Assembly: GCA_023657465.1 (NCBI GenBank)
Contig: JAGTJX010000002.1
Span: 1-64,000 of the forward strand
Source: Lysobacteraceae bacterium
Lineage (GTDB): Bacteria > Bdellovibrionota > UBA1018 > JAGTJX01
DNA length: 64,000 nucleotides
Direction of reading: 5' to 3'
The position numbers and the translations under genes are program-made. Of this stretch, positions 6,656-33,452 are shown piece after piece (position 1 is the stretch's first letter; every line of letters begins with the position of its first letter). The notes under the pieces are model-generated. The model was not told the DNA's origin. It worked only from the letters and a program-made list of their open reading frames with translations, and ran no database searches.

Positions 6656-6678
6656 CAGTCCTGTGAACTGTTATTTTT
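6648..6678 (+). terminator. Terminator of fusA, overlapping its stop codon
   Basis: A perfect 12-bp inverted repeat (6648-6659 with 6667-6678) with a 7-nt loop. The upstream arm contains the fusA stop codon TAA (6653-6655); the downstream arm ends in a T5 run. The stem is AT-rich on the outside with ACAGT/ACTGT at the top, so the A and T tracts allow it to work in both directions. Confidence 0.7.
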
Positions 6679-6716
6679 AGCGACACAGAAGTAGCATAAA
6701 TAGAGCATATTTAACT

Positions 6717-6778
6717 ATTGACGTTTGGCGTCAATTATTGGATATATGGGGAAATTTCAATAGAAGGAGTGCCCCATG
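6717..6778 (+). promoter_or_regulatory. Promoter with palindromic -35 and a start-codon hairpin
   Basis: TTGACG (6718-6723), a 17-bp spacer and GATATA (6741-6746) make a plausible sigma-70 promoter. The -35 lies in a perfect inverted repeat, ATTGACG / CGTCAAT (6717-6723, 6729-6735), that could be an operator. In the transcript ATGGGG (6746-6751) can pair with CCCCAT (6772-6777), which includes the first two bases of the start codon of the next gene and loops out its SD (AAGGAG, 6764-6769). Whether the hairpin is in the mRNA depends on the exact start site, which I cannot determine. Confidence 0.4.
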
Positions 6779-7129
6779 GTTTTAGCTATTTTGTTTATTT
6801 CACAATTTGTTCATGCTCAATACAATGCTCAGTCTACTTCATTTTCGAAGAAGCAAGAGAGTCCTGTCGAATTAGAAATCAAGCAGACGATTCGTGCTGT
6901 CGAAGATCAATTCGACTTGTTCTGCGAGAAGGATAAGACTCCTGGTTTCTTCCAGCACTTTTCATTCTGCTCAGGTGAGTACAACATGTCTAAGCCTTGT
7001 GCAAAGAAGACCATCTACGAGTGCAAAAACCGCGCTGGAAAAGTCACTAAGAAGATCAAGACTTGGGTGACTTATGACATGAGCGGAAACGCCACCAAGC
7101 TTGTTAAAATTAAAGTTAAAAACAAGTAA
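6776..7129 (+). CDS. Small secreted protein of unknown function
   Basis: 117 residues. Not recognised. An N-terminal hydrophobic stretch ends in VHAQY, a likely signal-peptidase-I site after about residue 14, so the mature protein is near 100 residues and exported. The mature part has five cysteines (FCEKD, FCSG, PCAKK, YECKN region), a predicted helical acidic start and a basic C-terminus rich in Lys. Cysteines suggest disulfides in the periplasm. SD AAGGAG is 6 nt before the ATG. It is probably transcribed alone from the promoter just upstream, with the fusA terminator behind it. Confidence 0.65.
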   Translation: MVLAILFISQFVHAQYNAQSTSFSKKQESPVELEIKQTIRAVEDQFDLFCEKDKTPGFFQHFSFCSGEYNMSKPCAKKTIYECKNRAGKVTKKIKTWVTYDMSGNATKLVKIKVKNK

Positions 7130-7217
7130 TCGTAAATTCTGATCTAGAAAAAGAACGAAACGATAAGCTTCTGGTCGATGAATCAGACTGTACGTTTCAG
7201 AGGCATATTCATCTAAT

Positions 7218-7285
7218 AAATATGTACTTACTAGGTACAGAAGTTGTAATTCAATTCACTGACCACACCCGATAAGTACATATTT
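7218..7285. repeat. Inverted repeat, 13-bp arms
   Basis: AAATATGTACTTA (7218-7230) and its exact complement TAAGTACATATTT (7273-7285) are separated by 42 bases in the gap between two convergent genes. The right arm touches the stop codon of the glycosyltransferase gene. AT-rich arms and position are compatible with a shared terminator region, though the loop is long; a decayed small mobile element is the alternative. Confidence 0.5.
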
Positions 7286-9015
7286 TAGTAATCTAAAATC
7301 TCATAGACAGAATAGGGTTTGTTATTAAGAACTTGCTCGAATACTTTCTTATGCTTAAATCCATTGATAATTTTTTGACAAAAAGTGACTTGAACTTTGT
7401 CCATAGTGTTGCACCAAAAGTTCCAATGAAAGAAAATTCCACCAGGATAATTTTTTCTCCATACTCTGATTTGATTTCGTAGAATGAGAGGCTGATCGAG
7501 TAAGTGAGAAAGAATAGAGCTCTGTGCTGAGCTAACTCCTAGTATCAACCACATGCTTGGATTATGGCTGAATATGAGGGCATCTTTAGAAATCTTGGAC
7601 GCGACTTCTCTAGAGAATGAAACATCCAACCTTGCTTGGACTGCTTCTTGACCTAGCAGAGTCACTTCTTCAAGCGTAGTTGCCCAAGTTGAGACAATTA
7701 AAATCAACATCGCAAGTGGGGCTACTTTAATGATTGCTTTAAAGTTTTGAGTCAAAACTTCAATGATACGATTTGCTCCAAATCCAGATAGTATTGCAAG
7801 CGCTGGAGCTGAGATGACTGAATACCTGACATCGATTCCGTAATTGTATCCACCTGCATAGAAGAATAAAAAAATACCAAAAGTCAGAATGAACCAAGTC
7901 CAAACGGACAAGAGTTCTATTTTATTTTTTTTCGCTCTGAAAAAAAGTCCGAATAAGGCGCATATTGTAAAAAAAATTGGAAAACGAACATTTGTAAAAT
8001 AAAAAGGGATGTTCATTCCAGAGTTCATTTTAAAAGCGTCTAAAGAGAATTTCTCTCCTGTGCCGTTACCCCAACTGTGATTTCTAAATGAAAGGATGTG
8101 TAGAAAAACTGGAAGCAGTAGGACTGTCAAAGCAGGTAATAGAATATAAAAACGATTGATTTTTAATTCTGTTTTTAGAGCTGGGTACAATATCAAAAGT
8201 ACAGGAATCAGCATGAGAGGAGATTCTCCTCTCATTTGGAATGTAAAACCTAGAGATCCAATCAGAGATGCTCCCGAAAACCAAGAAGGAAGTTGCCTAT
8301 AAATCAGGGCACAATAAATGGTAAGAGTAGAAAACAAAACAGTAGGGATCTCCACAGCAGCAGTATTAGCAAATCTCATGACCATCGGAGTGAGTGAAAA
8401 AAATAAAGCTGAATACAATGCCCCTAGTTCGGATTGAAAAAGTAAGTAGTAGACACAGAAAATAAGTAAGATTGTAAAAAAATAAGCGCAATTTACCGCA
8501 AAAAACGCTGTCGCTTCGCTCACATTAAAAATAGAAAAAAAATAAGAGAGGTATGTAGGGTATCCACCAGGTTGCTTATTGTATTCTCGTGCTTGGGCAA
8601 ATAGCTTGCCTTGTCTGATAGTTCCTTGATTCACCATGAGAGATTCACCCGTTGTGTGAATGAGTTGTCCGATATTCTCGTAGATGTGTTCATCAAAATA
8701 TACACGGTTCGTCTGTGGTACGTAGTTTTTTAGGAATACGGTTGAGAAAATGAGGATCAGAAGTAATGCTAATCTCGTTATAGGTTTACTCTGAATGATG
8801 GGGCTCAGAGTGATTCGCCAATGGTAGGCTAACCCGATTGAGATGAGTGCTGTACTGATGTAAAGTGACCATACTGTTGCGCGTGGGAGAATCTTAGTTG
8901 TGATGTAGAAGTGACCTTCAGAGAGGAATAATAAAAATGCGAGTGAGATCATTAAAACGGTGAATGCTACTCCTGAAATCTTAATCCATGTCATATGTGA
9001 GATTGTACTAAACAA
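7285..9015 (-). CDS. GT-C type membrane glycosyltransferase (ArnT/PMT-like)
   Basis: 576 residues with about ten to twelve hydrophobic segments. The first large outer loop carries VYFDEHIYENIGQ, matching the acidic pair expected in the catalytic loop of GT-C/GT39/GT83 enzymes. These use polyprenyl-phosphate sugars and transfer the sugar on the periplasmic face, to lipid A, proteins or glycans. The C-terminal 120 residues form a soluble periplasmic part. The gene is AT-rich and stands alone, with no sugar-lipid synthase next to it; the HAD-UbiA fusion at 58262 could supply a donor. The acceptor cannot be told from sequence. Confidence 0.75.
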   Translation of the reverse strand: MFSTISHMTWIKISGVAFTVLMISLAFLLFLSEGHFYITTKILPRATVWSLYISTALISIGLAYHWRITLSPIIQSKPITRLALLLILIFSTVFLKNYVPQTNRVYFDEHIYENIGQLIHTTGESLMVNQGTIRQGKLFAQAREYNKQPGGYPTYLSYFFSIFNVSEATAFFAVNCAYFFTILLIFCVYYLLFQSELGALYSALFFSLTPMVMRFANTAAVEIPTVLFSTLTIYCALIYRQLPSWFSGASLIGSLGFTFQMRGESPLMLIPVLLILYPALKTELKINRFYILLPALTVLLLPVFLHILSFRNHSWGNGTGEKFSLDAFKMNSGMNIPFYFTNVRFPIFFTICALFGLFFRAKKNKIELLSVWTWFILTFGIFLFFYAGGYNYGIDVRYSVISAPALAILSGFGANRIIEVLTQNFKAIIKVAPLAMLILIVSTWATTLEEVTLLGQEAVQARLDVSFSREVASKISKDALIFSHNPSMWLILGVSSAQSSILSHLLDQPLILRNQIRVWRKNYPGGIFFHWNFWCNTMDKVQVTFCQKIINGFKHKKVFEQVLNNKPYSVYEILDY

Positions 9016-9097
9016 AGAAAGTTTGCGCTAGATTACGTGCTATCAAATGTATTAGCTACGACTTAATCTGACACTTTTGAAAAAGAAGGGTTACCCA

Positions 9098-9133
9098 GGT
9101 TTGTATCGAGCAAACCGGATCTTAAAAAGATCC
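9098..9133 (+). promoter_or_regulatory. Two abutting hairpins before the IS481 transposase
   Basis: GGTTTG / CAAACC (9098-9103, 9111-9116) is followed directly by GGATCTT / AAGATCC (9117-9123, 9127-9133). Both stems are perfect. They lie 16 bases before the transposase ATG. Such structures upstream of transposase genes usually block read-through transcription or hide the ribosome site from outside messages. Confidence 0.45.
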
Positions 9134-9149
9134 AAGAAAGGTAAGCCCA

Positions 9150-9769
9150 ATGACAACTAATCAGAAATTGATTAAAAATAAAATAGGTCTTTTGAACCTC
9201 GCAGAAGAGCTAGGGAATGTGTCCCGGGCTTGCAAAGTGATGGGTTTCTCTCGTGACACCTTTTACCGCTACCAAGAGCTAGTGGCCGAAGGCGGGATGG
9301 AGAACTTAATTGAAAAGACGAGACGTAAACCCAATCTAAAGAATAGGACCGATGAAAAGACGGAAAATGCCGTGGTACAAATTGCGGTCGACAATCCCGC
9401 CTATGGCCAGGTACGCGCCAGTAACGAACTAAGAAAGCTAGGTGTTTTTGTTTCGCTGGCAGGTGTTAGGTGCATCTGGGTTAGGAATGAACTTGAAACT
9501 TTTAAAAAGCGCCTTAAGGCTTTAGAGCAAAAGGTGCAAGAAACTGGAGGTATTATCCTCACAGAAGCCCAAGTTCATGCCCTAGAACGAAAGAAGCAAG
9601 ACGACGTAGCTATAGGAGAAATCAAAACTGAACATCCTGGCTATTTAGGCTCGCAGGACACTCTTTACGTGGGCAATCTCAAAGGTGTTGGTCGCATTTA
9701 CCAACAGACCTTTGTAGATACTTATTCGAAAGTGGCCTTTGCGAAACTCTATACCACTAAAACTCCGAT
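9150..9769 (+). pseudogene. IS481-family transposase, N-terminal two thirds
   Basis: About 207 codons before the IS3-like insertion. Residues about 12-60 form a helix-turn-helix (GNVSRACKVMGFSRDTFYRY). The RNase H-like catalytic core begins with HPGYLGSQDTLYVGNLKG, which holds the first Asp, followed by YQQTFVDTYSKVAFAKLYTT. The frame is intact up to the insertion point after CGAT 9766-9769. Beyond it an unrelated 30-codon tail is read from the inserted element. SD-like AAAGGTAAG precedes the ATG. Confidence 0.85.
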
Positions 9770-9796
9770 CCCGTCAACCCCCAAATTACGAACCAC

Positions 9797-10640
9797 TCAG
9801 GCTGAGATTCTGATCGCAGGAATGAGTCCATTTGTATGGTCCTCAAGGAACTGTTTTGGAGATTTGTAACCAATTGAACCATGGATTCTGCGATTGTTGT
9901 AAAACTCAATGAACCTAGTCACGCTCGAATAAACATCCGCGTAAGTAAAAAAATATTTTGGAACAATGAGCTCAGCCTCTAAAATCGAGAAAAATGATTC
10001 AATGTAGGCATTACGGTTCGGAGTTCGCGGTGGAATGAACTCGTGTTTTAGTTTTTGTTCGAGGCGTTTTAAATAAAAATGAAACTTATTTGAGCTCATC
10101 TGGGACCCGTTGTCTGACCTAATAATTAGTCCATGTTCTGTTGTGATGTTTTCCTTCATCAGAGCCTGGTTCAGAGTAAAAATTAGGTCTCCTGATTTGA
10201 TTGACTGACCTACAAAATAATTGATTACTTTTTTTGAGAACACATCAATGAATGCCAGTATAAAGCACCATCTGTTTTCCCCGTGAATCCAAATGTATTT
10301 TAAATCAAACTGCCAGAGCTGAGTGGGTCTCGTCACGTCGTGATACCCGCATCGCTTTTTCTTAGGGCGCGATCTTGAATCATGTTCTCTAAAAAGCAAT
10401 AAATTCTTATCCCTGCAAATACGGTAAATCTTTTTATGATTAATATACATTCCGTAGTCAATTATTAGGTATTTGGAGAGCTTTTTGACTCCTCCACCAT
10501 TCGTGTATTCGAGTTGCGCTCGGTAATATTTTAATCGATCCACGATCACGTGATCGTCAATTCTTACTCCATCACGATTGATAGTGAATCCAGGCGGAGG
10601 GCGTCCTACTTTTTTAATCTCGGGATTCTTTTTATGAACA
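9797..10640 (-). pseudogene. IS3-family orfB transposase, main part (5' end cut off by IS66)
   Basis: The DDE integrase core is complete: first Asp in LWQFDLKYIW, second in IIRSDNGSQ, Glu in NAYIESFFSILEAEL, followed by the usual RFIEFYNNRRIHGSI segment. An ATT start at 10549 would give only 250 residues. Joining the sequence across the IS66-like element and one target copy extends it upstream as TQIYVHKKNPEIKKVGRPPP into DNA at 13098-13211, where it overlaps orfA in the -1 frame. Natural expression is therefore as an OrfAB fusion, which the insertion prevents. Confidence 0.85.
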
Positions 10641-14136: not shown

Positions 14137-17100
14137 TTACATACAAGGTGGGCCTTCAACGGGCTCCCAACATCCGGATATTTCTACGCATGTTTCTAAG
14201 CACATGTAACTACCCATCGCGCTAATACAAGCGGAATAAGTAGAAAAAGTGCAACCAAAGGGAATAGTCGTAGTAGTAGTCGTAGTAGTAGTTGTAGTAG
14301 TAGTTGTAGTAGTAGTTGTAGTAGTAGTTGTAGCCTCTGATTCGCAATTAGGTCCAATCCAATTGCCACCTATACATTGATAAACATAACTATTATCAGT
14401 GCTGCCGCATGCGTCTTGGTTACAAGTAAAGGTTCCCCATGGAGAAGCAATCTTAGTTGCTTCTGGATAAAATGTGGCGTCAACGCCAACTTGTGCAGAT
14501 GTCATCCAGCTTAGACATGTTGGATTTGATGGACCAATCCAAATACAGCCTGAAACAGTGGTTGTAGTCGTAGTAGTAACCATTGGTTCGCAAGCTTCTG
14601 TTCCTCCTGGTGTAGCGTCAAACCATCCAGCAGGACAAATCGTACAGTCTGCTCCTCCGTTACCAGCGTCACATTCATATGGGCATGAGTTAGAGGCTCC
14701 ACCATTCCCAATATAAGACGAAGTGCCTAGCTTATTCGTACATCCTGTGGTGCTACATCCATCTGGGTTAGTACCACCATGTCCATTCCAATAACTTCCA
14801 GTTGCAGGAGTATTAGTACATGAAGCCACTCCGCAACCGCCAGCAGTCGTTGCGTTCGAAGTGAAATACTCACCATTAGTTGTGTTCGTACAAGCTGAAC
14901 AGCTTGAAGCTCCACCAGTAGAGTAGGTGCCCACTGCACACGCAGTCTCAGAGGTCGCTCCAGTACCTGAAACAAAGTAACCCGCACTAGCTGAAGTACA
15001 TGCATCTAAGCCTGTTCCAGGAGTTGCATCATAGGTACCTTCTGCGCAAGTGACGCAAGCGGATCCGTTCCAACCTGTGCCAGCAGCACAATCAGCTAAG
15101 TTACAAGCAGCGCCACCAGCAGTTGTGTTTCCATTCCAAGTGTATCCACCGTTAGGAGTAATCGAAGTAAAGTTACAGCTGTTTGATCCTCCTCCGGTTG
15201 TAGAGTAGACAGCAGATGCGCAGTTAGTAGGAAGATTGGTGCATGTTGTACAGCTCGTTGATCCTGCTAAAGAAAACTCTCCAGCGCTACAAGCCACGCA
15301 AGCTTCTTGTCCACCCGCTGTGCCGTCACGAGTATCGGCTCCGCACTGTGTACATGATGAAGTTCCGTAACCGTTATCACATGCATAAGCGCATGAATCA
15401 GTGGTTCCACCGTGAGTGATGAATGAGGAGATCCCAAGTTTGCCAGTACAAGCGGTTAGTCCGCAGCCGCCTTCAGTAGTCGCATTCGAGTTCCAATAAT
15501 TACCCACTGTAGTGTTCGTACAAGTACTACAAGTTGATGCTCCACCTGTGGAGTAAGATCCGACAGGGCATGCAGTCTGAGCGGTGTTACCAGATCCCGC
15601 AGCGTAGAATGCAGCAGATGCAGGAGTACAGTCTGATTGACCAGTAGAACCTTGGTAAGAGCCTGGAGCGCAGATTGTCTGAGTGGTGTTACCCGTACCT
15701 GAAGCATAATAACCCTCAGATGCAGGAGTACAGTCTGATTGACCAGTAGATCCTTGATATGTTCCAGCAGCACATTGAGTCTGTGAAGTATTGCCTAGGC
15801 CTGAAGCGTAGTGACCCGCAGATGCAGGAGTACAGCTTGGTTGACCAGTAGATCCTTGGTAAGTTCCAGCGGCGCATTGAGTCTGAGACGAAGCGCCAAC
15901 ACCGGCAACATAATTACCCGCAGATGCAGAAGTACATGTATCGTTACCAGAGTTAGGTGTGGAGTCATATGTACCCGCAGTACATTGAGTACATCCGCCT
16001 CCGCCGTAACCCGATGCACATTCAGTACAACCTGCTCCGTAGAACCCTGCAGGACATGCAGTAGGTGCGCAAGCCAAACCATCCCAAGAATAAAATGCAT
16101 CACAATTACATGCTGCTATTCCGCCTACGAGAGATGAATTCCAAGTAGAGTTTGCAGGGCATGAGAATGAAGTAAAATTACAAGTCGAAGTCGTGTTACC
16201 GTCTGTGTAGACGAGTGAAGTAGCGCCTGCTCCTGCAGTTCCTAAGACTGGGTTAGCACATGAGGTACATGAGCTTGCTGTTGCAGCAGAGTATCCTTGA
16301 ACGCAAGTTGCGCAAGTGTTTGTGTCACCTGCTGAAGCATTTCCAGCTGTACATGCAGTACAGCTCTGAGCTGCTCCTCCGTATCCGTATCCACCATTAC
16401 ATGAGTAAGATCCAGAACCAATTGTACAACCTGTTTCAGATCCGCCGCCTGAGCTTGTGTAAGTGACAGAAGAGGCACCTGCAATAGTGTTCGTGCATGA
16501 GAGACATTGAACAGCTGCAGATGCTGTAGCAGATACAGTGTAGTTACCATTACCGCAGAAATTACAACTCGTCGCAGTTCCACCGCCGTACCAGTTATCG
16601 ACTCCGCACTGTAGACAAGTGATGCCTGAAACTCTGTGTCCACTATTACAAGACACGCTTTCAATCGGGCAAGAGTCAGTAGTGAGTCCGCTAGAAACTG
16701 AGTAGGTTAATGTCGTTCCGTTTGTTGGTGTTGCAGTACATGCAGAACAGTTTAGATTAGCAACACCACTAGAGAAAGTGCCAGTACCGCAGGCAGTACA
16801 AGCGGTCGCAGTAGCTGATCCAGAAGTTGAATTACCAGGTCCGCAATTGTTACATGCTTCGATTCCTGCACCTACGGAGTCATACGTTCCACCACCGCAA
16901 GCCGTACATGAAGCAGATCCGTATCCATCGTTACAATAGTAAGAGCAGGTGTTGGTGGTTCCACCGTGACCATCGTAAGTAGAGGTTCCCAGTTTGTTTG
17001 TGCATGCAGTATCTGCACATCCACCGGCAGTAGCGCCGTTACCTGTCCAGTAATTACCTACAGTAGTATTCGTACAAGCTCCGCAAGTTGAAGATCCGGC

Positions 17101-20100
17101 TGCTGCCCAAGTACCGGTAGGACAAGATGCGCACGAAGTAGCTCCCGCTGCTGCGGAGTAAGTAGTCGCAGGGCAGTTGATACAATCTTCTTGACCAGCA
17201 CCTACAGAGTCATACATTCCTGCAGTACACTGAGTACATGCGGCGGATCCGTATCCTGCGTTACATGCGTAGGTACAAGTATTCGTGGTTCCACCGTGAG
17301 TGGTGTAAGTGAATGTTCCTGCTCCGTTTGTACAAGCAGTATTAGTACAAGTGACAGCGGAAGTACCGTTAGAGGTCCAATAGAATCCAGTCGTGTTGTT
17401 CGTACATGCTCCGCATGATCCAGCTGCAGCGGCACTCCAAGTACCGATATCGCAGTTCGTACATGAAGTGTTCACTCCAGCAGATGCATAAGTAGAGGCA
17501 GAGCAGTTAGCGCAAGCTTCTTGTCCATCACCGACTGAGTCATAGACTCCAGTAGAACATGCAGTACAAGAAGATGATCCATATCCCGCGTTACATGCGT
17601 AAGCACAGTTATCGATCCCACCGCCGAGTCCAGTGTAAACATAATTACCAGCTGCGTTTGTACATGCAGTACAGCTGGCCACGATTCCACCTGCGGAGAA
17701 TTCTCCAATGTTACATGCGGTACATGCTCCAGCATTGAGTCTGAAATCGACTGCGCAGATTCTCTGATTGAGGCTGACAGGTCCACCATCACCACCAGCG
17801 TTGTAAGCAAGAACTTCAAGAGTATGCAAACTTCCTGAAGCAAGGGCTGTGAAGTTGTAGGTGAGTACGTTACCGACGTCAGTCCAGCCACCACCGTCAG
17901 CTCTGACTTTGTATCCTGTAGCACTAGCAACCACGTTCCAAGAAGTATTGATTGTGGTCGGAGTAGCTCCCGTCACTGTGAATCCTGTAGGAGGTGGAAC
18001 GTTACCGACGCTGATGGCAACGTTGACGAAGTTGCCAATCGCATCAGTCACTGTGAATGTGCCAGATCCAGATGAGACACCAGCAGTATAGGTAGTGGAA
18101 GTCACTCCCATGCCTTGTAAACCTTGAGGCGCGATCGATCCTGAAGTTCCAACGAATGCGAAGGTATAAGGCTCCAAGCCACCTGCAAGAGTGATGACTT
18201 GTGTTTGAGTAACGAGAAGATTAAACGCAGCAGGTGAAGCTGTGAGCTGGGGTTTAATGTCGACAGTCGCATCTGCTTGCTGTGGACCACTATCAGTCAC
18301 TCGGATTGTTGCAGGGTTTGATCCCGGTACTGCAGCAGGAGCTGTGTAAGCGCCCGTTGCACCCACGATGGATCCACCACCAGCACTTACTACTGAGAAT
18401 GCAGCAGTTCCCACGACGTTACTAGCGGTGAAGGTGGTAGGATTATTCACCATGAGAGTGATACTTGTGGGTGAGATCGAGAGATTAGGAATGATCGTAT
18501 AAACAATATCGTAGGCAGTGACCACACCATCACTTATGCGAACTGTAGCTGAGCCCACTCCTGCTGGAGCGGTGTAGACAGTAGAAGCTCCTGAAGCAAG
18601 TGAGAGTGATCCTCCACCCGCAACAATTGAGTACGAGTAGTTCAGTGATCCGTTAACCGACGGAGCACCTCCCGATGGAGTGATGGTGTTGGTTTGAGAC
18701 ATATGAATGTTACGAGTCGAGGGCGCTCCGCTAATTTCAGGAGGAGTACCGATACCAATCGTACTATCAACCCAGTTACCTAGAGCATCTGTAACTCTGA
18801 TGACAAGCGTACCAGGAGTCATGCCTGCGTCGCCACGAGCTGTGGTCGCAGTGAGAGTAGTGACTGAAGTGTCACCTGGACCTGATTGCTTAGAAAATAC
18901 AAACGGACTCACACCACCAGAGACTGTGACGACTTGGTTCTGAGCCACTTGAATGGTGGCTGATGCTGGAGCAATTGCAATTGCTGCATTCACAGTAATA
19001 GGAACGTTCACAATGTTGCCGTAAGAATCTGTTACGCGAACCGAGTAGGTACCAGGAGTTGCTGGAGGTGTATAGACTCCATCTATAGTGACTGTACCGT
19101 TAGGTGCGCCACCTACTACAGAGTATGTGTAGCCAGGTACTCCGTTAGAAGCAGTACAAGTAGAAGTATTAGCAGTAGTGATCGTAAGCGGTGAGCAGCT
19201 CATGCCTAAAGCTGCGTTCACTTGAAGCTGGATCACTGCAGTCTGCGCAGTAGGAGTCGATGAGTCAGAGACTGTGACATCGCGAGTACCTGTAGGTAGT
19301 GCTGCTGTGAAGAGGGAACTCACTGCAGGACCTGGGGTGTCTAATGTTCCACCAGCAGCGCCTGCAGTGAATGCAAATGCGTAAGGAGACTGGCCGCCAG
19401 TTGGCGCAATATTGTAAGTGTTCGTAGGAGCAAGCACTACGAGTGGAGGAACATAAAGAAGGCCTGTGATCGTCACTGAAGCATTCGCTGTGTTTAACTC
19501 TGCATCAGTGACTCTTACGGTTGCAGCACCAGGAACACCTGGAGCAGTGTACAATCCTGCGGCGTCAATTGATCCACCACCTGCAAATACGGAATAGACA
19601 TAAGGAGGAACACCTCCACCTCCTGAGAATGACTGAGTGGTTGAGGTCATGAGTGAAAACGAAGTAGGGCTAATAGTGAGAGGGGAATAAACATTGATCG
19701 TAGCAATTGCTGTGTTTGCAATACTGTCGGTCACTCGGATCACAACAGTGCCAGGAGTCGCAGTCGCAGTGAATGCTCCAGTGCCTGCAATGATAGAACC
19801 TGAAGCCGCACCCGATTGCACAATGTGCGAGTAAGGAGGAATACCCCCTGACACACCAAACGGAAATCCTGACGATACTTGTACGTTCTTAGTGGTAGGA
19901 ACATAGGTGAGTGGCTGATAAACGTTGAACGTATAGACTTTAGTAGCAGCGAGAGCGTCAGTCACTGTCACATCCGTAAGACCTGGAACTGCAGGAGCCG
20001 TGAAAGTAGAGTTTGTGCCTGTTGCTGGAGAGACGACACCTATTCCTGCAGTGATCGCAAAGTTGAACGCAGGTTTACCTGTGGCTGGTGTAATTGTGTA

Positions 20101-20742
20101 GGTGGTGTTCACAGGAATATTGATGTTGATTGCAGTTGGATCTAATACCCAAAACACGTTGATCATAGCTTGATCTGTGTTGCCATCAGCGTCTGTCACT
20201 TTTACAAACGTTACACCTTGAGCGCCAGTGGAGGTGAAGAGTCCAGTCACAGGATCAACCGATCCCAGACCTGAGAGAATTGAAAAAGTATAAGGTGCAC
20301 GACCACCCATCGCACTAAACGAAAACGTATCTCCAGGTAGCAAGTCGACGTCATTGTCATTGATCACAAACGCATCCATCACATAAAGCGTGATCGTCGC
20401 GGTTTTGCCCTTGCTATCAGTGACCATGATCACGATGTGTTCAGTGCCATCAGCATCAGGAGTCGTGATCGAAGCAGGAGCTTTGTACACTCCAGACGAA
20501 GTAAGACTTCCGCCACCAGAAATGAGTTTGTAAGTAAACGGCTTCGTTCCTCCTGCAATATCAATTGTGTATGAGGTTCCCACGAGCACAGTCGTCTTAG
20601 GATTCTTCAGTGAGATTTTTGCAACATCTTTGAATTTATTGCGGAAGAACTGCATCGAACAGGAAGTGGAGAACAAAGCTGTGCACAGCACTAAGGCCGA
20701 GACAAACTGTTTGGATAGCTTTGAGTTAAATCCCGTTCCCAT
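14137..20742 (-). CDS. Giant secreted lipoprotein-like protein with Ig-like, FN3-like and cysteine-rich repeats
   Basis: 2201 residues. Signal sequence with a lipobox-like FSTSC at residues 24-28; Ser at -3 is not ideal. Residues about 40-915 hold 11 Ig-like repeats of about 75-85 residues, each with a GG..PY/F strand and ending RVTDxxGN-like. Residues about 917-995 form a fibronectin-III-like domain (PPPTGFTVTGATPTTINTSW). The remaining 1200 residues carry roughly 120 cysteines in repeats such as ACNAGYGSAACTQCTAGMYD, like eukaryotic GCC2/GCC3 or ephrin-receptor cysteine-rich modules. A 22-Thr linker precedes a last Cys-rich tail of about 40 residues. It is probably a cell-surface adhesin or fibre; no enzyme domain is visible. 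A promoter abuts the start codon. Frames on the other strand here are shadows of its repeats. Confidence 0.9.
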   Translation of the reverse strand: MGTGFNSKLSKQFVSALVLCTALFSTSCSMQFFRNKFKDVAKISLKNPKTTVLVGTSYTIDIAGGTKPFTYKLISGGGSLTSSGVYKAPASITTPDADGTEHIVIMVTDSKGKTATITLYVMDAFVINDNDVDLLPGDTFSFSAMGGRAPYTFSILSGLGSVDPVTGLFTSTGAQGVTFVKVTDADGNTDQAMINVFWVLDPTAININIPVNTTYTITPATGKPAFNFAITAGIGVVSPATGTNSTFTAPAVPGLTDVTVTDALAATKVYTFNVYQPLTYVPTTKNVQVSSGFPFGVSGGIPPYSHIVQSGAASGSIIAGTGAFTATATPGTVVIRVTDSIANTAIATINVYSPLTISPTSFSLMTSTTQSFSGGGGVPPYVYSVFAGGGSIDAAGLYTAPGVPGAATVRVTDAELNTANASVTITGLLYVPPLVVLAPTNTYNIAPTGGQSPYAFAFTAGAAGGTLDTPGPAVSSLFTAALPTGTRDVTVSDSSTPTAQTAVIQLQVNAALGMSCSPLTITTANTSTCTASNGVPGYTYSVVGGAPNGTVTIDGVYTPPATPGTYSVRVTDSYGNIVNVPITVNAAIAIAPASATIQVAQNQVVTVSGGVSPFVFSKQSGPGDTSVTTLTATTARGDAGMTPGTLVIRVTDALGNWVDSTIGIGTPPEISGAPSTRNIHMSQTNTITPSGGAPSVNGSLNYSYSIVAGGGSLSLASGASTVYTAPAGVGSATVRISDGVVTAYDIVYTIIPNLSISPTSITLMVNNPTTFTASNVVGTAAFSVVSAGGGSIVGATGAYTAPAAVPGSNPATIRVTDSGPQQADATVDIKPQLTASPAAFNLLVTQTQVITLAGGLEPYTFAFVGTSGSIAPQGLQGMGVTSTTYTAGVSSGSGTFTVTDAIGNFVNVAISVGNVPPPTGFTVTGATPTTINTSWNVVASATGYKVRADGGGWTDVGNVLTYNFTALASGSLHTLEVLAYNAGGDGGPVSLNQRICAVDFRLNAGACTACNIGEFSAGGIVASCTACTNAAGNYVYTGLGGGIDNCAYACNAGYGSSSCTACSTGVYDSVGDGQEACANCSASTYASAGVNTSCTNCDIGTWSAAAAGSCGACTNNTTGFYWTSNGTSAVTCTNTACTNGAGTFTYTTHGGTTNTCTYACNAGYGSAACTQCTAGMYDSVGAGQEDCINCPATTYSAAAGATSCASCPTGTWAAAGSSTCGACTNTTVGNYWTGNGATAGGCADTACTNKLGTSTYDGHGGTTNTCSYYCNDGYGSASCTACGGGTYDSVGAGIEACNNCGPGNSTSGSATATACTACGTGTFSSGVANLNCSACTATPTNGTTLTYSVSSGLTTDSCPIESVSCNSGHRVSGITCLQCGVDNWYGGGTATSCNFCGNGNYTVSATASAAVQCLSCTNTIAGASSVTYTSSGGGSETGCTIGSGSYSCNGGYGYGGAAQSCTACTAGNASAGDTNTCATCVQGYSAATASSCTSCANPVLGTAGAGATSLVYTDGNTTSTCNFTSFSCPANSTWNSSLVGGIAACNCDAFYSWDGLACAPTACPAGFYGAGCTECASGYGGGGCTQCTAGTYDSTPNSGNDTCTSASAGNYVAGVGASSQTQCAAGTYQGSTGQPSCTPASAGHYASGLGNTSQTQCAAGTYQGSTGQSDCTPASEGYYASGTGNTTQTICAPGSYQGSTGQSDCTPASAAFYAAGSGNTAQTACPVGSYSTGGASTCSTCTNTTVGNYWNSNATTEGGCGLTACTGKLGISSFITHGGTTDSCAYACDNGYGTSSCTQCGADTRDGTAGGQEACVACSAGEFSLAGSTSCTTCTNLPTNCASAVYSTTGGGSNSCNFTSITPNGGYTWNGNTTAGGAACNLADCAAGTGWNGSACVTCAEGTYDATPGTGLDACTSASAGYFVSGTGATSETACAVGTYSTGGASSCSACTNTTNGEYFTSNATTAGGCGVASCTNTPATGSYWNGHGGTNPDGCSTTGCTNKLGTSSYIGNGGASNSCPYECDAGNGGADCTICPAGWFDATPGGTEACEPMVTTTTTTTVSGCIWIGPSNPTCLSWMTSAQVGVDATFYPEATKIASPWGTFTCNQDACGSTDNSYVYQCIGGNWIGPNCESEATTTTTTTTTTTTTTTTTTTTTTIPFGCTFSTYSACISAMGSYMCLETCVEISGCWEPVEGPPCM
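14266..14331 (-). repeat. 12-bp microsatellite coding a 22-Thr tract
   Basis: 22 consecutive Thr codons built from a 12-bp unit (three ACT plus ACA or ACG), about 5.5 copies. All units keep the frame, so slippage would change linker length but not break the gene. A shorter Thr run lies at about 14550-14580. Confidence 0.9.
15571..15877 (-). repeat. Three tandem 102-bp repeats in the giant gene
   Basis: Three consecutive 34-residue units begin CAAGTYQGSTGQPSC, CAAGTYQGSTGQSDC and CAPGSYQGSTGQSDC and end GNTSQTQ, GNTTQTI and GNTAQTA. Nucleotide identity is high between copies, with a more diverged copy upstream (CTAGTYDSTPNSGNDTC), indicating recent internal duplication. Array length may vary between strains by recombination. 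Confidence 0.85.
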
Positions 20743-28205: not shown

Positions 28206-29534
28206 ATGAAATCCTATCTAATCCCAGCTCTTTTTGCGCTATTTTTCATAACCATTTGCAACGGCGCAGCAGATGAAGTGACGAACCGCGAATTGGCGAG
28301 AACCTATGCTAACTTTTATTTAAGACAGAAAGATTTCAAACAAGCACAGTCTTCACTCGCATCTCACTTAGAGAGTGATCCTGCAGATACCGAAGCTTGG
28401 AATCTCATGGGACTAGCCGCGATGGAGATTCCTGATTTGAGCGGAGCCAAGCAAGCGTTCTATCGTGCGTCTCAAGATGAGAAGTCAGACTCACGCGGTA
28501 TCTATCTTTATCACTTTGCGGATGCGCTCAATCGTGCGGGTGATGTAGTGAAGGCACGTGATGCGCTGAAGATCGCTGCTCAGTATTCGCAAGTGAAGGA
28601 CAGTGCTCATCGTGCACTTGAACTCATGAAAGAGAAACAGCCTCTTCCGGAGTTGTTTTTATCTGAGAATGCGCGCTGGAATAAGTCTGTAGCAGTATCG
28701 GTTGGATACGATACCAACGTCATGATGGCTCCGAATACAACGCTCGCCAACTTAACTGCGAGTGATATCGCGAGTCCAAATGCGATGGTCATGGGTAAAA
28801 TTGGATTTGTGAAGCCTAAGTTTACTCGCGAAATCGAAGCATCACTTTTGGGTGCATTCCAATATCAGACGAATCCAGCGGCCTATCAGTTTACAAGTAT
28901 TTATGGAGCGCTCAGCGGAGAGTATAGAGAGAACGGCGATGAGTTTTCAAACTTCTATTGGGGAATTCCAGTGAAGGCCGATGCAGCGCTTTTAAATACA
29001 TCTGGTTTTCAGGTTTTCAATTGGAACGCAAGTTTCAATCCAAGGTTTGGACATCGTATGGATGCTTTATCTAGGATTGAGCTTGAGCCTTTTGCGGCTT
29101 ACAGATGGTTTCTACTTGCTTCAGGATCAGATACTGCCAACGACAGAACGGGTTTTGCATTCGGTGCAGCTGCAACTTATCGCTCGTTCTTAGGTGCTTG
29201 GGAGTATGCAGTTGGAGTGAAGTTTGATCGTCAGTTTGCTCGTGGCGGAAACTTCTCTTCATACAGTTATATGATTCCGATCTCGTTTGTATCTCCTACG
29301 GTGTTCTGGAGTTCGAAGCTTGCGATCAAGAGTGATGTTGGTGTGATTGATTACCCTCTCGCTTCTTACACGAGGAGGGATTTTGTGATCAATCCCCAGG
29401 TAGCACTCTTTAGAAAGTTTGGCCAAAAGTGGACAGGCACGTTTACAGTCGGATCGCTCATTAATAGTTCATCTCTCTCTAGCGCGGATTACAGAAAGTT
29501 TTATGCCTCAGCGATGGCAGGGATGGATTTCTAG
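28206..29534 (+). CDS. TPR-plus-beta-barrel outer-membrane protein (Slam-like architecture)
   Basis: 442 residues. Signal peptide ending CNGAA. Residues about 25-145 form three TPR-like repeats (ARTYANFYLRQKDFKQAQSS; PADTEAWNLMGLAAMEIPDL). From about 155 a beta-barrel begins with VAVSVGYDTNVMMAP and ends in MAGMDF with a terminal Phe. TPR plus a 14-strand-type barrel is the layout of surface lipoprotein assembly modulators (Slam/DUF560) and of some polysaccharide exporters such as PgaA. The GYDTNV opening strand is common in those families. The next two genes encode a FecR-domain protein and a lipoprotein, possible partner and client. The SD is weak and the gene diverges from the M42-like gene. 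Confidence 0.7.
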   Translation: MKSYLIPALFALFFITICNGAADEVTNRELARTYANFYLRQKDFKQAQSSLASHLESDPADTEAWNLMGLAAMEIPDLSGAKQAFYRASQDEKSDSRGIYLYHFADALNRAGDVVKARDALKIAAQYSQVKDSAHRALELMKEKQPLPELFLSENARWNKSVAVSVGYDTNVMMAPNTTLANLTASDIASPNAMVMGKIGFVKPKFTREIEASLLGAFQYQTNPAAYQFTSIYGALSGEYRENGDEFSNFYWGIPVKADAALLNTSGFQVFNWNASFNPRFGHRMDALSRIELEPFAAYRWFLLASGSDTANDRTGFAFGAAATYRSFLGAWEYAVGVKFDRQFARGGNFSSYSYMIPISFVSPTVFWSSKLAIKSDVGVIDYPLASYTRRDFVINPQVALFRKFGQKWTGTFTVGSLINSSSLSSADYRKFYASAMAGMDF

Positions 29535-29610
29535 GATGGTCACAAGTGAAACGTGATTTTGTAGAGTTAGGTTGTTTTTGAGAAAATGAAAGTAAGGGTG
29601 GATATAGCTT

Positions 29611-30453
29611 ATGAATAAAATATTAATTTTAATTACTATTATTCTGATCTCAGGAGAAGCAAGCGCTGCGGATTCCGGAATTGTTGGTCAGCTAGCCAAT
29701 GTGCAGGGGATAGTAAAAGTAGACGATGTACTTGCGAAGGACGGCATCTATCTCAAGAAGGGTTCTGTGATCACAACTGAAGAAGGTAGAGCTTCTGTGA
29801 TGCTAGGCCAAGAGACAGTGATGCACCTCGATCGCAACGCAATCCTAAAAGTAGATGACTACGCCGCTGGTAAGAAGGGCGAGTCAGGCAATCTCAATCT
29901 TCAACAAGGCAATACTCGTACACTCTTGAAGAACTTGGGTAATGGTGTCGTTCGTAAGAGTTTATTCATTCGTACTAAGGCAGCAGTCATGGGTGTGAGG
30001 GGAACGGAAGTTTATGTTTCTGCTCCGATCGATAAGCCACCTACATTCTCCGTCGTGAGAGGTGAGGCGTTCATTCAGATGATGCCAGGACCTGGCGCTC
30101 CTGCGAATGCTCCGATTGGTGGACCGGGCAAGGAATTCATTCTCAAAGGTGGACAATCAGTCGTGATTCCTGAAGTGAAAGCAGGAGTCGCTCAAGGTAG
30201 CGACTCAGGCAAAACTCCTGTTGTAGAGAACAAGGACGCAGAAAAATTGGCCGATCAAGCTCAAGAAGTCGCACCACCGCCTCAAAAAGTTGAAACCAAA
30301 AAGCAGATGGATCGATTCATTGCGAGTAGTGATCCCTTCCGATTCAATCCGAATGTGATTCCAGGCTCTGGAGTGGGCTTTCCTTTTGATCCGCTACTCA
30401 ATGGTGGGAAGATTCCAGTAACAGTAACTTTTGGCGGCGGTACTAGGTACTAA
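29611..30453 (+). CDS. Secreted FecR-domain protein
   Basis: 280 residues. Signal peptide ends SGEASAAD. Residues about 28-175 are a FecR domain: VQGIVKVDD, LKKGSVITTEEGRASVMLG, LDRNAILKVDDY and the signature TKAAVMGVRGTEVYV. A Pro/Lys/Gln-rich linker follows (about 190-235), then a Gly/Pro-rich end (GSGVGFPFDP, FGGGTRY). Unlike FecR sigma regulators it has no cytoplasmic or membrane part and no sigma factor nearby; it is a free periplasmic or extracellular FecR module, as found beside TPR/barrel genes in spirochaetes and delta-proteobacteria. SD GGGTGG. It lies 76 bp after the TPR-barrel gene. Confidence 0.8.
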   Translation: MNKILILITIILISGEASAADSGIVGQLANVQGIVKVDDVLAKDGIYLKKGSVITTEEGRASVMLGQETVMHLDRNAILKVDDYAAGKKGESGNLNLQQGNTRTLLKNLGNGVVRKSLFIRTKAAVMGVRGTEVYVSAPIDKPPTFSVVRGEAFIQMMPGPGAPANAPIGGPGKEFILKGGQSVVIPEVKAGVAQGSDSGKTPVVENKDAEKLADQAQEVAPPPQKVETKKQMDRFIASSDPFRFNPNVIPGSGVGFPFDPLLNGGKIPVTVTFGGGTRY

Positions 30454-30476
30454 TTGATTTTTTGGAGATGAAGGTT

Positions 30477-31871
30477 ATGAAAAATATTTTAAGCACTTTA
30501 GTTCTAGTGGTATTCCTTTTTGTACTAGGTTGTGGTCCAGGTGATGAGCGTCGCGTTCCTGTGAGCTTGAAGTTTTCCGGCTTTGATAACGCTGTTTTAA
30601 CAGATGGCAACACATGCAAGCTGAGATCAGATATTCATGACGGGTCAGAAATTGGGGTTCTCTATTTAGTCGCTCATTATCCAGATGCCACCCAAGACTA
30701 TTTCTTACTCAATGACGTTTATTTCGATCAAATCAATTTTGATGGATCCTTCAGGCCGTCGGTAATTGATTTCTCAAGAGTTCAAAGGAGCTTCGATGTG
30801 AAACCAAGATTGGGAGTAAGATTTAGTATAAACGGTGTCATCTATAGACATAAAAACTGGAATGGTTCAGGTGACAGTGGTGGGTCTAATGGATGGAACT
30901 TTGCCCAAGTTACTCCAGGCCATAGTTATCTAGCTTGTAGTCGTGCAGCGGCAAATTCTTCAGTATTGGGTTATACTGATGCATCATCATTTCCTATAGT
31001 AGTTGTGGGACTATCCGATCCTGTGGATGTCACACAGAAGAATCAGTCTGTGACTATTTCTAACATTGAATTTTTTAGAACACATATAGATTCTGTTGCA
31101 GGTAATGCACTCAATCTCGATGATAACGCTATCTGCGGTGGTAAATATTGTGGTGATGTGGTGAGAGGTTTTGATGGTAAAGTTGAGTATAACGGATCGA
31201 ATGATTGGGCTGTTTCAACGAGAACGCCACGCGCGCTTGCTGCTAATACAAACTTTGCAAAAGTGAGAGTAAGGGTCAATACTGCATCATTAGTAAAACC
31301 CGCTCCTATCCAATTTGCCTTTGTGGATGAAACAGCCCCAGGCGCTCCTGCATACAGTAATCAAGGTTGGTTGCCATTCCCTTGTGGATTTAAAGACAAA
31401 GGGACACTTCCTATCGACGGAGCGGGAAATCAACTCTTTAATGATGGTGCGATTTGTAGAGGTCATCATTTTTATGCTGGGAATATTTTTAAAAGTGCTG
31501 GTGACTCTAAAGTTTTTGAAATATGGCCTCTTTTCCCAAATCGTAAGTATAGATTAGTTGTCGCTACCTACATTGATCAGGCATCAACTGGCACACTAGC
31601 AAACAGACCAGCTGTTTATGATGAGGTAGTTTTAAATGACAGTACGATTTTTAATACTGGATTTAGTAAAAAATCCTGTATTGCATGCTCATTGGATGTC
31701 AATACTGGTTCTGCTACAAATGGAGTTGGAAGGTTTGGAGTTGTTTTTTCTCCAAATAATCCATGCACAACAGTAAGTAACACTTTTCCAGCTCCAACAG
31801 GCTCTCAGTGCCGTGCTCCAACGGCATCTGATTATCAAACAGTGAACTGCTATGTTGAAGCATGTCCATAG
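30477..31871 (+). CDS. Cysteine-rich lipoprotein of unknown function
   Basis: 464 residues from ATG 30477, 9 nt after GGAG; an upstream TTG/ATG (30462/30468) is less likely. Signal-peptidase-II site FVLGC at residues 15-19. The mature protein has many cysteines in close pairs (AICGGKYCGD, KSCIACSLD, VNCYVEACP), suggesting disulfides, and is rich in Asn, Gly and aromatic residues, like beta-sandwich surface proteins. No family recognised. It follows the FecR gene by 23 bp and is followed by polX at 13 bp. Its place behind a Slam-like gene makes a surface-displayed client a reasonable guess. Confidence 0.65.
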   Translation: MKNILSTLVLVVFLFVLGCGPGDERRVPVSLKFSGFDNAVLTDGNTCKLRSDIHDGSEIGVLYLVAHYPDATQDYFLLNDVYFDQINFDGSFRPSVIDFSRVQRSFDVKPRLGVRFSINGVIYRHKNWNGSGDSGGSNGWNFAQVTPGHSYLACSRAAANSSVLGYTDASSFPIVVVGLSDPVDVTQKNQSVTISNIEFFRTHIDSVAGNALNLDDNAICGGKYCGDVVRGFDGKVEYNGSNDWAVSTRTPRALAANTNFAKVRVRVNTASLVKPAPIQFAFVDETAPGAPAYSNQGWLPFPCGFKDKGTLPIDGAGNQLFNDGAICRGHHFYAGNIFKSAGDSKVFEIWPLFPNRKYRLVVATYIDQASTGTLANRPAVYDEVVLNDSTIFNTGFSKKSCIACSLDVNTGSATNGVGRFGVVFSPNNPCTTVSNTFPAPTGSQCRAPTASDYQTVNCYVEACP

Positions 31872-31883
31872 TTGCGTGATGAA

Positions 31884-33452
31884 ATGCTAACCTCCGATCG
31901 TTGCATTGAACTTCTTGAAGAACTAGAGAGACTCTTACGCCTCAATGAAGAGAACGTGTTCAAAGTGCGCGCGTTTGAAAAAGCTCAGCAGTCACTCTCT
32001 GGAATGACAGCTTTAGAAGAGCGCGCCCGCGCAGGCAATCTCACTGAGATCCCTGGAATTGGCAAAGGCATCGCAGAAGTGCTCACAGAGTTCTTGCTCA
32101 AGGACAAGTGCTCTCTCAGAGATGAGTTGCTTGCCAAGCTTCCACCAGGACTGCTCGATCTCACACGTATCCCAGGCTTAGGTCCTAAGAAAGCTAAGAC
32201 CATCATTGAAGAGCTAGGCATTCACTCAGTAGGCGAGCTCGAGTATGCGTGTAGAGAGAATAGACTCGCAACTCTAAAAGGTTTTGGAGAGAAAGCCCAA
32301 GCTCAAACACTCGCACACATTGAAGCGATGAAGGCACGTGAGAAAAAGGCTCTTTTCTCAGATACCGAGACTTGGGTAGTGATGCTGCTCTCAGATCTCA
32401 AAGATTCATTTGACATCGAGCTTACTGGTCAGATGCGGAGAAAGTCAGAGATCATCGACTCCATTGAGTTCGTGGCTATTGGATCAAAAACGGATCGCTC
32501 CAAAATCGAAAAGAAAATCGAGAACTTTCTAAAAGATCGTCCCACAGAACTTCCTATTACGGTTCATATGACGGAGAAAACCCAGTTTGCAAAATCACTT
32601 CTAGAAACTACAGCTACTCCCGAGTGGCTAAAGATTTCTGTGAAGCATCCTGAGAGTGAGGCGCTCGACCCCGATCTCATGGAGAGCTTAGGAGTGTTTG
32701 ATAAAGGGTTTAAAGTTTCTCAGCTTCTCACACACGATTCTATCCAAGGTGTGTTTCATAATCACACGACCCGCTCGGATGGAAGAGCTACCGCTGAGCA
32801 GATGATTCGTGAGACGATCAAGCTTGGATACAAGTACATTGGACTCTCTGATCACTCACAATCTGCATTCTACGCTCAGGGGTTGAAGGTTGATGCACTC
32901 AAAGAACAGAAGAAAGAAATCGAAAAACTCCGTAACCAATTCCCTGAGATCACGATTTTCTGGGGAGTAGAAAGCGATATTCTCCAAGACGGCTCACTCG
33001 ACTATCCAGATTCAGTACTGAAGGAGTTTGATTTTGTCGTGGGTTCAGTACACTCGCGCTTCAAGATGGACCGCGAGGTCATGACAAAGCGAATTCTAGC
33101 TGCAATTGAGAACCCTTACTGCTCGATGATTGGTCACCTCACTGGGAGAATCCTCCTTGCTCGCGAGGGGTACCAGATCGATTACGAGAAAATATTCAAG
33201 GCTGCAGGTCGAGAAGGAACTGCAATCGAGATCAATGCGAATCCTCAGAGGCTCGATGTGGATTGGAGGCATGGGGATCTGCTTCGTGAATACAAAGTCA
33301 TGACCTGTATCAATCCCGATGCTCACGATACTTCAGGGCTATCGGATACTCGTTTCGGGATTACGGTAGCGAGGAAAGCACTCTTGCCAATGGACCTTGT
33401 GCTCAATACACGCTCTGCAAATGAAGCTGTATCCTGGCTTAGATCAAAATAG
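31884..33452 (+). CDS. PolX-family protein: degenerate polymerase core, intact PHP domain
   Basis: 522 residues from ATG 31884. Residues 1-155 are the PolX 8-kDa and fingers region with three helix-hairpin-helix motifs (IPGIGKGIAEVL, IPGLGPKKAKTI, LKGFGEKAQAQT). The palm motif GSxRRxxExxxDID appears as GQMRRKSEIIDSIE: the two catalytic Asp become Ser193 and Glu195, so polymerase activity is unlikely. The PHP phosphoesterase domain (about 285-522) keeps its metal ligands: HNHTTRSDG, GLSDHS, GVESDIL, GSVHSR, IGHLTGR and INPDAH. Bacterial PolX acts in base-excision repair with 3'-5' exonuclease and AP-site processing from the PHP domain. This version is probably a nuclease that keeps DNA-binding HhH motifs. 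Confidence 0.85.
   Translation: MLTSDRCIELLEELERLLRLNEENVFKVRAFEKAQQSLSGMTALEERARAGNLTEIPGIGKGIAEVLTEFLLKDKCSLRDELLAKLPPGLLDLTRIPGLGPKKAKTIIEELGIHSVGELEYACRENRLATLKGFGEKAQAQTLAHIEAMKAREKKALFSDTETWVVMLLSDLKDSFDIELTGQMRRKSEIIDSIEFVAIGSKTDRSKIEKKIENFLKDRPTELPITVHMTEKTQFAKSLLETTATPEWLKISVKHPESEALDPDLMESLGVFDKGFKVSQLLTHDSIQGVFHNHTTRSDGRATAEQMIRETIKLGYKYIGLSDHSQSAFYAQGLKVDALKEQKKEIEKLRNQFPEITIFWGVESDILQDGSLDYPDSVLKEFDFVVGSVHSRFKMDREVMTKRILAAIENPYCSMIGHLTGRILLAREGYQIDYEKIFKAAGREGTAIEINANPQRLDVDWRHGDLLREYKVMTCINPDAHDTSGLSDTRFGITVARKALLPMDLVLNTRSANEAVSWLRSK

Follow-up and report, generated by a model that had tools for sequence, protein, structure and literature searches.

Organization of the locus

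The subject of this analysis is a set of three consecutive genes, designated A, B, and C, in a 64,000-nucleotide stretch (the window) of a Bdellovibrionota genome (GenBank assembly GCA_023657465.1, contig JAGTJX010000002.1, positions 1 to 64,000). The genes encode a tetratricopeptide repeat (TPR) protein with an outer-membrane β-barrel, a secreted FecR-domain protein, and a lipoprotein, respectively. Barrel-FecR-lipoprotein sets recur across the phylum, which includes the predatory Bdellovibrio, and the set may represent a so far undescribed means by which lipoproteins are placed or wired at the surface of the cell. A first-pass annotation made from the sequence of the window had likened the three genes to a Slam system, which displays lipoproteins on the outer surface, with FecR as a possible guide for the client.

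Gene A encodes a 442-residue protein with a signal peptide, N-terminal TPRs (TPR_19, 27.2 bits; TPR_14, 27.0 bits; both above the Pfam cut-off), and a C-terminal barrel. In the AlphaFold2 (AF2) model, which was built on six sequences (predicted local distance difference test score, pLDDT, 80.1; predicted template modeling score, pTM, 0.61), periplasmic TPR helices at residues 22–140 are followed by 14 long strands that form a barrel at residues 157–441. The open reading frame (ORF), the Pfam matches, and the model agree with the earlier description of the product as a signal-peptide TPR plus β-barrel protein. The strand number, which that description had named as a possible refutation, is 14 in the model, as in Slam. 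The first strand carries the family motif G-Y/F-D-S/T-N-V. When the model was compared with PDB entries by Foldseek, the 14-strand barrels CymA, OmpG, and FadL were among the closest folds, with a target-normalized TM-score of up to 0.73 for OmpG. BcsC, which also combines TPRs with a barrel, was among the top folds, and Slam structures were absent from the best 50 matches listed.

Gene B encodes a 280-residue protein whose signal peptide ends at ASA↓A. PF04773 (FecR; 29.3 bits, cut-off 24) is the only family that passes its cut-off in the Pfam scan, which gave no DUF4880. B has no transmembrane or cytoplasmic FecR part and is a free FecR-domain protein, as had been proposed. The FecR domain is followed by a proline-rich linker and a conserved C-terminal β-strand tail, KIPVTVTFGGGTRY; the C-terminal part of B is encoded at positions 30400–30453. 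Most FecR proteins of Bdellovibrionota have the same kind of ending, with a proline-rich linker and a short β-strand tail (KVIITP, RLHVTIV, VPVTVTF). The tails of family f5 differ, with a Cys-bearing stretch at the end. A match of FecR to an antifreeze protein among PDB sequences was weak and was discarded as not meaningful. No gene for an extracytoplasmic function (ECF) sigma factor or a TonB receptor lies beside B; its neighbors include an M42 peptidase gene and a PolX-type gene. A third FecR gene in the genome (C1:390269) has neither a barrel nor an N-domain lipoprotein (described below) adjoining it.

The listed start of gene C is TTG 30462. ATG 30477 is probably the true start, because GGAG lies 10 nucleotides upstream of it. 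The N-terminus read from ATG 30477 is MKNILSTLVLVVFLFVLGC, followed by GPG. Mature C has 446 residues including 13 Cys (2.9%), and the designation as a cysteine-rich lipoprotein holds. No relatives of C were found in Pfam, NCBIfam, PDB, or the 58 related genomes. What recurs downstream of FecR is a lipoprotein gene as a class, not the sequence of C.

The positions are summarized in Table 1. The gap between A and B is 76 bp, and that between B and C is 8 bp if C starts at the TTG and 23 bp if it starts at the ATG. The PolX/PHP-type gene abuts C with no gap and runs in the same direction, apparently in the same transcription unit, but we do not count it among the components of the A-B-C system. 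A scan of viral contigs using this neighbor gave no matches. Upstream of A, the M42 peptidase gene and then genes reading as gap, pgk, and tpiA lie on the opposite strand.

Table 1. Positions of genes A to C and of the following gene in the window
Feature	Position	Strand	Evidence
Gene A, TPR + outer-membrane β-barrel protein	28206..29534	+	ORF list, Pfam, AF2 model
Gene B, secreted FecR-domain protein (PF04773)	29611..30453	+	ORF list, Pfam
Gene C, lipoprotein, lipobox FVLG↓C	30477..31871 (alternative TTG start 30462)	+	
PolX/PHP-type gene (HHH_8, PHP)	31872..33452	+	Pfam

Conservation of the barrel-FecR pair

Profile and protein searches found relatives of A in 22 of the 58 related genomes, and a B gene adjoins nearly all of them. 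The pair is conserved across Bdellovibrionota in co-directional or divergent orientation. An alignment scan gave five named loci, and the named relatives are metagenome-assembled genomes (MAGs) of Bdellovibrionales/Oligoflexia. A scan of contigs with A alone gave no matches. More distant barrels of 530–770 residues also adjoin FecR genes, divergently in G018, G035, G026, and others, and in the order FecR-barrel in one direction in some sets. A profile of the barrel part alone connects the barrel families at E ≤ 1e-10.

Complete sets are found outside the window as well. In locus L184 (genome G190), the barrel, the FecR protein, and an 891-residue lipoprotein are encoded consecutively. MAG SJ854 (L133) shows the tandem order A-B-lipoprotein-B2-lipoprotein2. 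The genome of the window itself contains a second, divergent set (L113), consisting of a barrel (6025-7674, −), a FecR protein (7637-8602, +), and a lipoprotein (8624-10333, +). This segment, L113 6025-10333, corresponds to about 180-184 kb of G000:C1, and its lipoprotein has 570 residues and carries the N-domain. Thus, of the three-gene linkage suggested at first, the barrel-FecR pair and the repeated presence of a lipoprotein are retained, whereas C itself is lineage-specific.

The gene order varies among loci. Several loci, such as L063 and L122, have the A-B pair without a lipoprotein gene behind it. In L219 (7680-9548, genome G262), a gene for a glycosyl-hydrolase-core protein lies between those for FecR and the barrel. 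The order in family f5 is fixed as lipoprotein, A, B, and a small secreted protein (L068, L072, L075-L079, and L128), and a further lipoprotein is encoded downstream where the contig extends (a 5′-nucleotidase in L068).

Lipoproteins linked to FecR and their shared N-domain

Among 32 loci gathered via A or B, with lipoproteins called by an automatic filter, the gene directly after FecR encodes a lipoprotein in 8, compared with 15 of 331 background genes (4.5%; binomial p = 7e-5). One of the eight (L077) is of the 5′-nucleotidase kind, not the N-domain kind. In the closest co-directional loci the fraction is 6/8, a partly hand-scored value in which two loci were judged by eye (L064 and L065) and two cases came from the separately read locus L133 of SJ854. 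Because these loci share ancestry, the enrichment probabilities are too small.

Most of the linked lipoproteins share an N-terminal domain located right after the lipidated Cys (phmmer E-values down to 1e-21). This N-domain comprises about 160 residues, with a V-x-V strand, GPG, VPAGPxR, and three Cys. The model of the domain was built from seven sequences; the L113 lipoprotein meets the definition of the domain but is itself one of the seven. A profile detected members in 121 of the 369 genomes of the phylum. The passengers behind the domain are diverse, including RCC1 repeats, Kelch propellers, lectin-type Laminin_G, invasin-like Ig, DUF5122 propeller, and fn3 domains. All of them are of kinds common in exposed proteins. 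A fold prediction for the N-domain was set aside, since its pLDDT was 57 and Foldseek gave no significant match (best E = 0.018). The idea that C is a divergent N-domain protein was also rejected, as mature-only profiles and shuffled controls failed to separate C.

The 2201-residue lipoprotein encoded at 14137-20742 (−) in the window had been put forward as another client. It contains 120 Cys and eight Ephrin_rec_like stretches and matches fn3 weakly. It has no N-domain, its weak match to the profile being confined to the signal peptide, and by that test it is therefore unlinked to the barrel-FecR system.

The N-domain is far more frequent in genomes in which FecR is of the strong type, defined by E ≤ 1e-40, a cut-off picked after viewing the table. 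Both are present in 85 of the 369 genomes, FecR only in 27, the domain only in 36, and neither in 221. In one Bdellovibrio-like genus the corresponding numbers are 9, 1, 0, and 14, and the sole FecR-only genome (G211) does carry an N-domain gene according to a larger profile (L210). Family f18 contains sufficient genomes with and without each feature for a separate comparison, and there the link is weak (p = 0.08).

The C-terminal tail of FecR resembles the N-terminal strand of the lipoprotein. Over 26 loci, with window length and scoring fixed once and left untuned, the score is 15.2 for cognate pairs and 13.4 for non-cognate pairs (permutation p = 0.011). The resemblance within cognate pairs is also higher than that seen with other lipoproteins. 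In the window, the N-terminal strand of C, RRVPVSLKFSG, resembles the tail of B, KIPVTVTFGGG. We regard this resemblance as a lead.

Possible functions of the set

A and B could be functional by themselves, for example as a channel for polysaccharides or small molecules with a periplasmic adaptor, with C as a chance neighbor in this lineage. The lack of relatives and of the N-domain in C, the A-B pairs without a following lipoprotein, and the presence of BcsC among the best fold matches are consistent with this explanation. Contrarily, lipoproteins are over-represented after FecR, the genome contains a second set, and the N-domain co-occurs with the FecR type, all of which argue for a link. 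The predicted barrel has 14 strands against the 16 of PgaA and BcsC, and no glycosyltransferase gene lies beside the set. Chance adjacency is distinctly improbable in our estimation.

The lipoprotein may instead be a subunit of a fixed outer-membrane complex, such as a porin with a lid or a link between the outer membrane and peptidoglycan. Most loci have one lipoprotein per FecR, tandem FecR-lipoprotein units occur, and the similar strand motifs at the end of FecR and the start of the lipoprotein could be subunit contacts. Porins are among the nearest folds of A, and an SLT-LysM wall enzyme is a neighbor in f5 loci. However, the passengers vary widely behind a constant N-domain and many N-domain lipoproteins occur alone, and clients therefore fit better than fixed subunits. 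We consider a fixed complex improbable.

The position of CHASE2 genes should be noted, since it makes envelope sensing the main rival, though one that we judge unlikely. The lipoprotein would be an outer ligand receptor, the barrel would signal inwards, FecR would relay the signal in the periplasm, and an inner-membrane CHASE2 adenylate cyclase would be the output. A gene for a CHASE2-cyclase protein adjoins the set in Bdellovibrionaceae-type loci (L210, L215-L217, L223-L225, and L227; CHASE2 and cyclase were assigned by Pfam in L224 and L215, and the other loci were judged by size, 880-916 residues, and N-terminus). Classical FecR relays a signal from an outer-membrane barrel, and sensing would give the FecR protein a job near this one. 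Variable lectin and propeller passengers would suit ligand binding, and the operon partnership of FecR and CHASE2 in Burkholderia (PMC5192318) also favors sensing. On the other hand, in the genome of the window both CHASE2 genes are on C3 and C4, whereas both barrel-FecR sets are on C1, and B has no part that would span the membrane or act in the cytoplasm. CHASE2 is found in 57 of the 58 relatives whether or not the pair is present; its co-occurrence with the pair there is therefore uninformative.

Our preferred reading, which we put forward tentatively as somewhat short of probable, is that A-B-C forms a module, Slam-like in layout, for the assembly or display of lipoproteins, in which FecR serves as a periplasmic adaptor. 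A, B, and C would be one form of an outer-membrane module found throughout the phylum, in which the barrel and the secreted FecR protein cooperate in the periplasm and outer membrane and receive lipoproteins. The lipoproteins would be placed in the outer membrane or flipped across it, with their C-terminal passengers facing outwards. The folded domain of FecR may bind the barrel, the TPRs, or the client, and its proline-rich, strand-ended tail may occupy the docking site that is later used by the N-terminal strand of the client. The analysis establishes the identity of the genes, the conservation of the pair, the recurrent linkage and co-occurrence of lipoproteins, the 14-strand topology as a prediction, and the N-domain common to most linked lipoproteins, whereas the transport role, the surface location, the contacts made by FecR, and the client status of C are inferred. 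A more specific version is doubtful: an undescribed display system of Bdellovibrionota in which a TPR/14-strand barrel and a secreted FecR chaperone serve many fast-changing clients with a common N-terminal docking strand and domain, the FecR tail mimics the docking strand, and the client is handed over by strand exchange.

Several observations weigh against the assembly or display reading. None of the tests places the N-domain in C (E = 3.9; hhalign, 2.7%; rank within its own shuffles), so that the client role proposed for C draws on its position, its lipobox, and its short N-terminal strand. The tail score of the B-C pair is matched by 37 of 1000 shuffles, and over all loci the tail resemblance is modest, with related, non-independent loci inflating the test. 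The co-occurrence counts ignore phylogeny and descent, 36 genomes have the domain but not the strong type of FecR, and many N-domain lipoproteins are encoded away from any barrel-FecR pair. In f5, the upstream lipoprotein is an SLT-LysM protein (L068), and the downstream one, where examined, is a 5′-nucleotidase lipoprotein instead. As for Slam, A has no match to SlipAM (PF04575) at E ≤ 1 and none to TPR_Slam (PF24575), and a barrel-only hhalign to the one true Slam of Bdellovibrionota gives 0.2%.

To our knowledge, few systems are understood with respect to the route by which lipoproteins reach the surface, and the surface proteins with which predatory Bdellovibrio contacts its prey are poorly mapped. 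The phylum-wide pair with its modular lipoproteins offers a handle in the form of one gene pair and a searchable N-domain, which lists candidate surface proteins in about a third of the genomes. If the proposal is true, the FecR domain gains a role outside sigma-factor signaling.

Comparison with known systems

PgaA and BcsC resemble A in combining TPRs with a barrel. They differ in having 16 strands, much longer TPR domains, and adjoining synthase genes, whereas no synthase gene is present among the flanking ORFs scanned.

FecR of FecARI, like PupR and FpvR, shares PF04773 and a tie to an outer-membrane barrel with B. B differs in its cleavable secretion signal, in lacking a cytoplasmic anti-sigma part, and in having no sigma factor or TonB receptor gene nearby.

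In Burkholderia, FecR and CHASE2 proteins are operon partners (BiofilmReg, PMC5192318). These operons are like the Bdellovibrionaceae-type loci in that a secreted FecR is beside CHASE2 and a lipoprotein-type protein. The Burkholderia FecR is a LysM-FecR protein with a CHASE2 histidine kinase, and no barrel is reported; in the genome of the window, contrarily, CHASE2 is unlinked to the barrel-FecR sets.

Slam proteins of the type XI secretion system (T11SS; DUF560, SlipAM) are like A, as modeled, in their N-terminal periplasmic TPRs and C-terminal barrel, for which 14 strands are given in PMC8406197. Slam genes also have a lipoprotein gene in the neighborhood. The only above-cut-off SlipAM protein in the 369 genomes (L211 5882-7243, genome G292) has Y-D-S-N-I at strand 1, which recalls G-Y-D-T-N-V in A; no FecR or N-domain gene lies in the 12 kb examined there. 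The genome of the window has no SlipAM protein. The best PF04575 score among FecR-paired barrels is 20.5 bits (G211), below the cut-off of 22, and PF04575 does not figure in the 25 most frequent families of the 20 members of A1. TPR_Slam appears below cut-off in one divergent homolog (0.0017), and the TPR of A is generic. Slam has TonB receptors as partners, whereas A has FecR. The shared client domain is N-terminal here, whereas T11SS cargo is defined by a C-terminal eight-strand barrel; C and the linked or related lipoproteins scanned have no TbpBBD or lipoprotein C barrel among their Pfam matches, a judgment made by Pfam and not by fold, and these lipoproteins carry other passengers or none. 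Since the SlipAM domain is absent, A is not filed as a Slam protein, and of the likeness first drawn to Slam, the layout and the predicted strand number remain and family membership does not. FecR is not mentioned in the main text of the T11SS papers searched by term, or in papers on Bdellovibrio lipoproteins, in line with the earlier remark that FecR had not been described as a Slam partner. The barrel-FecR-lipoprotein set is real, recurrent, and, as far as literature searches show, undescribed, and A-B-C may work like Slam though it is not Slam by family.

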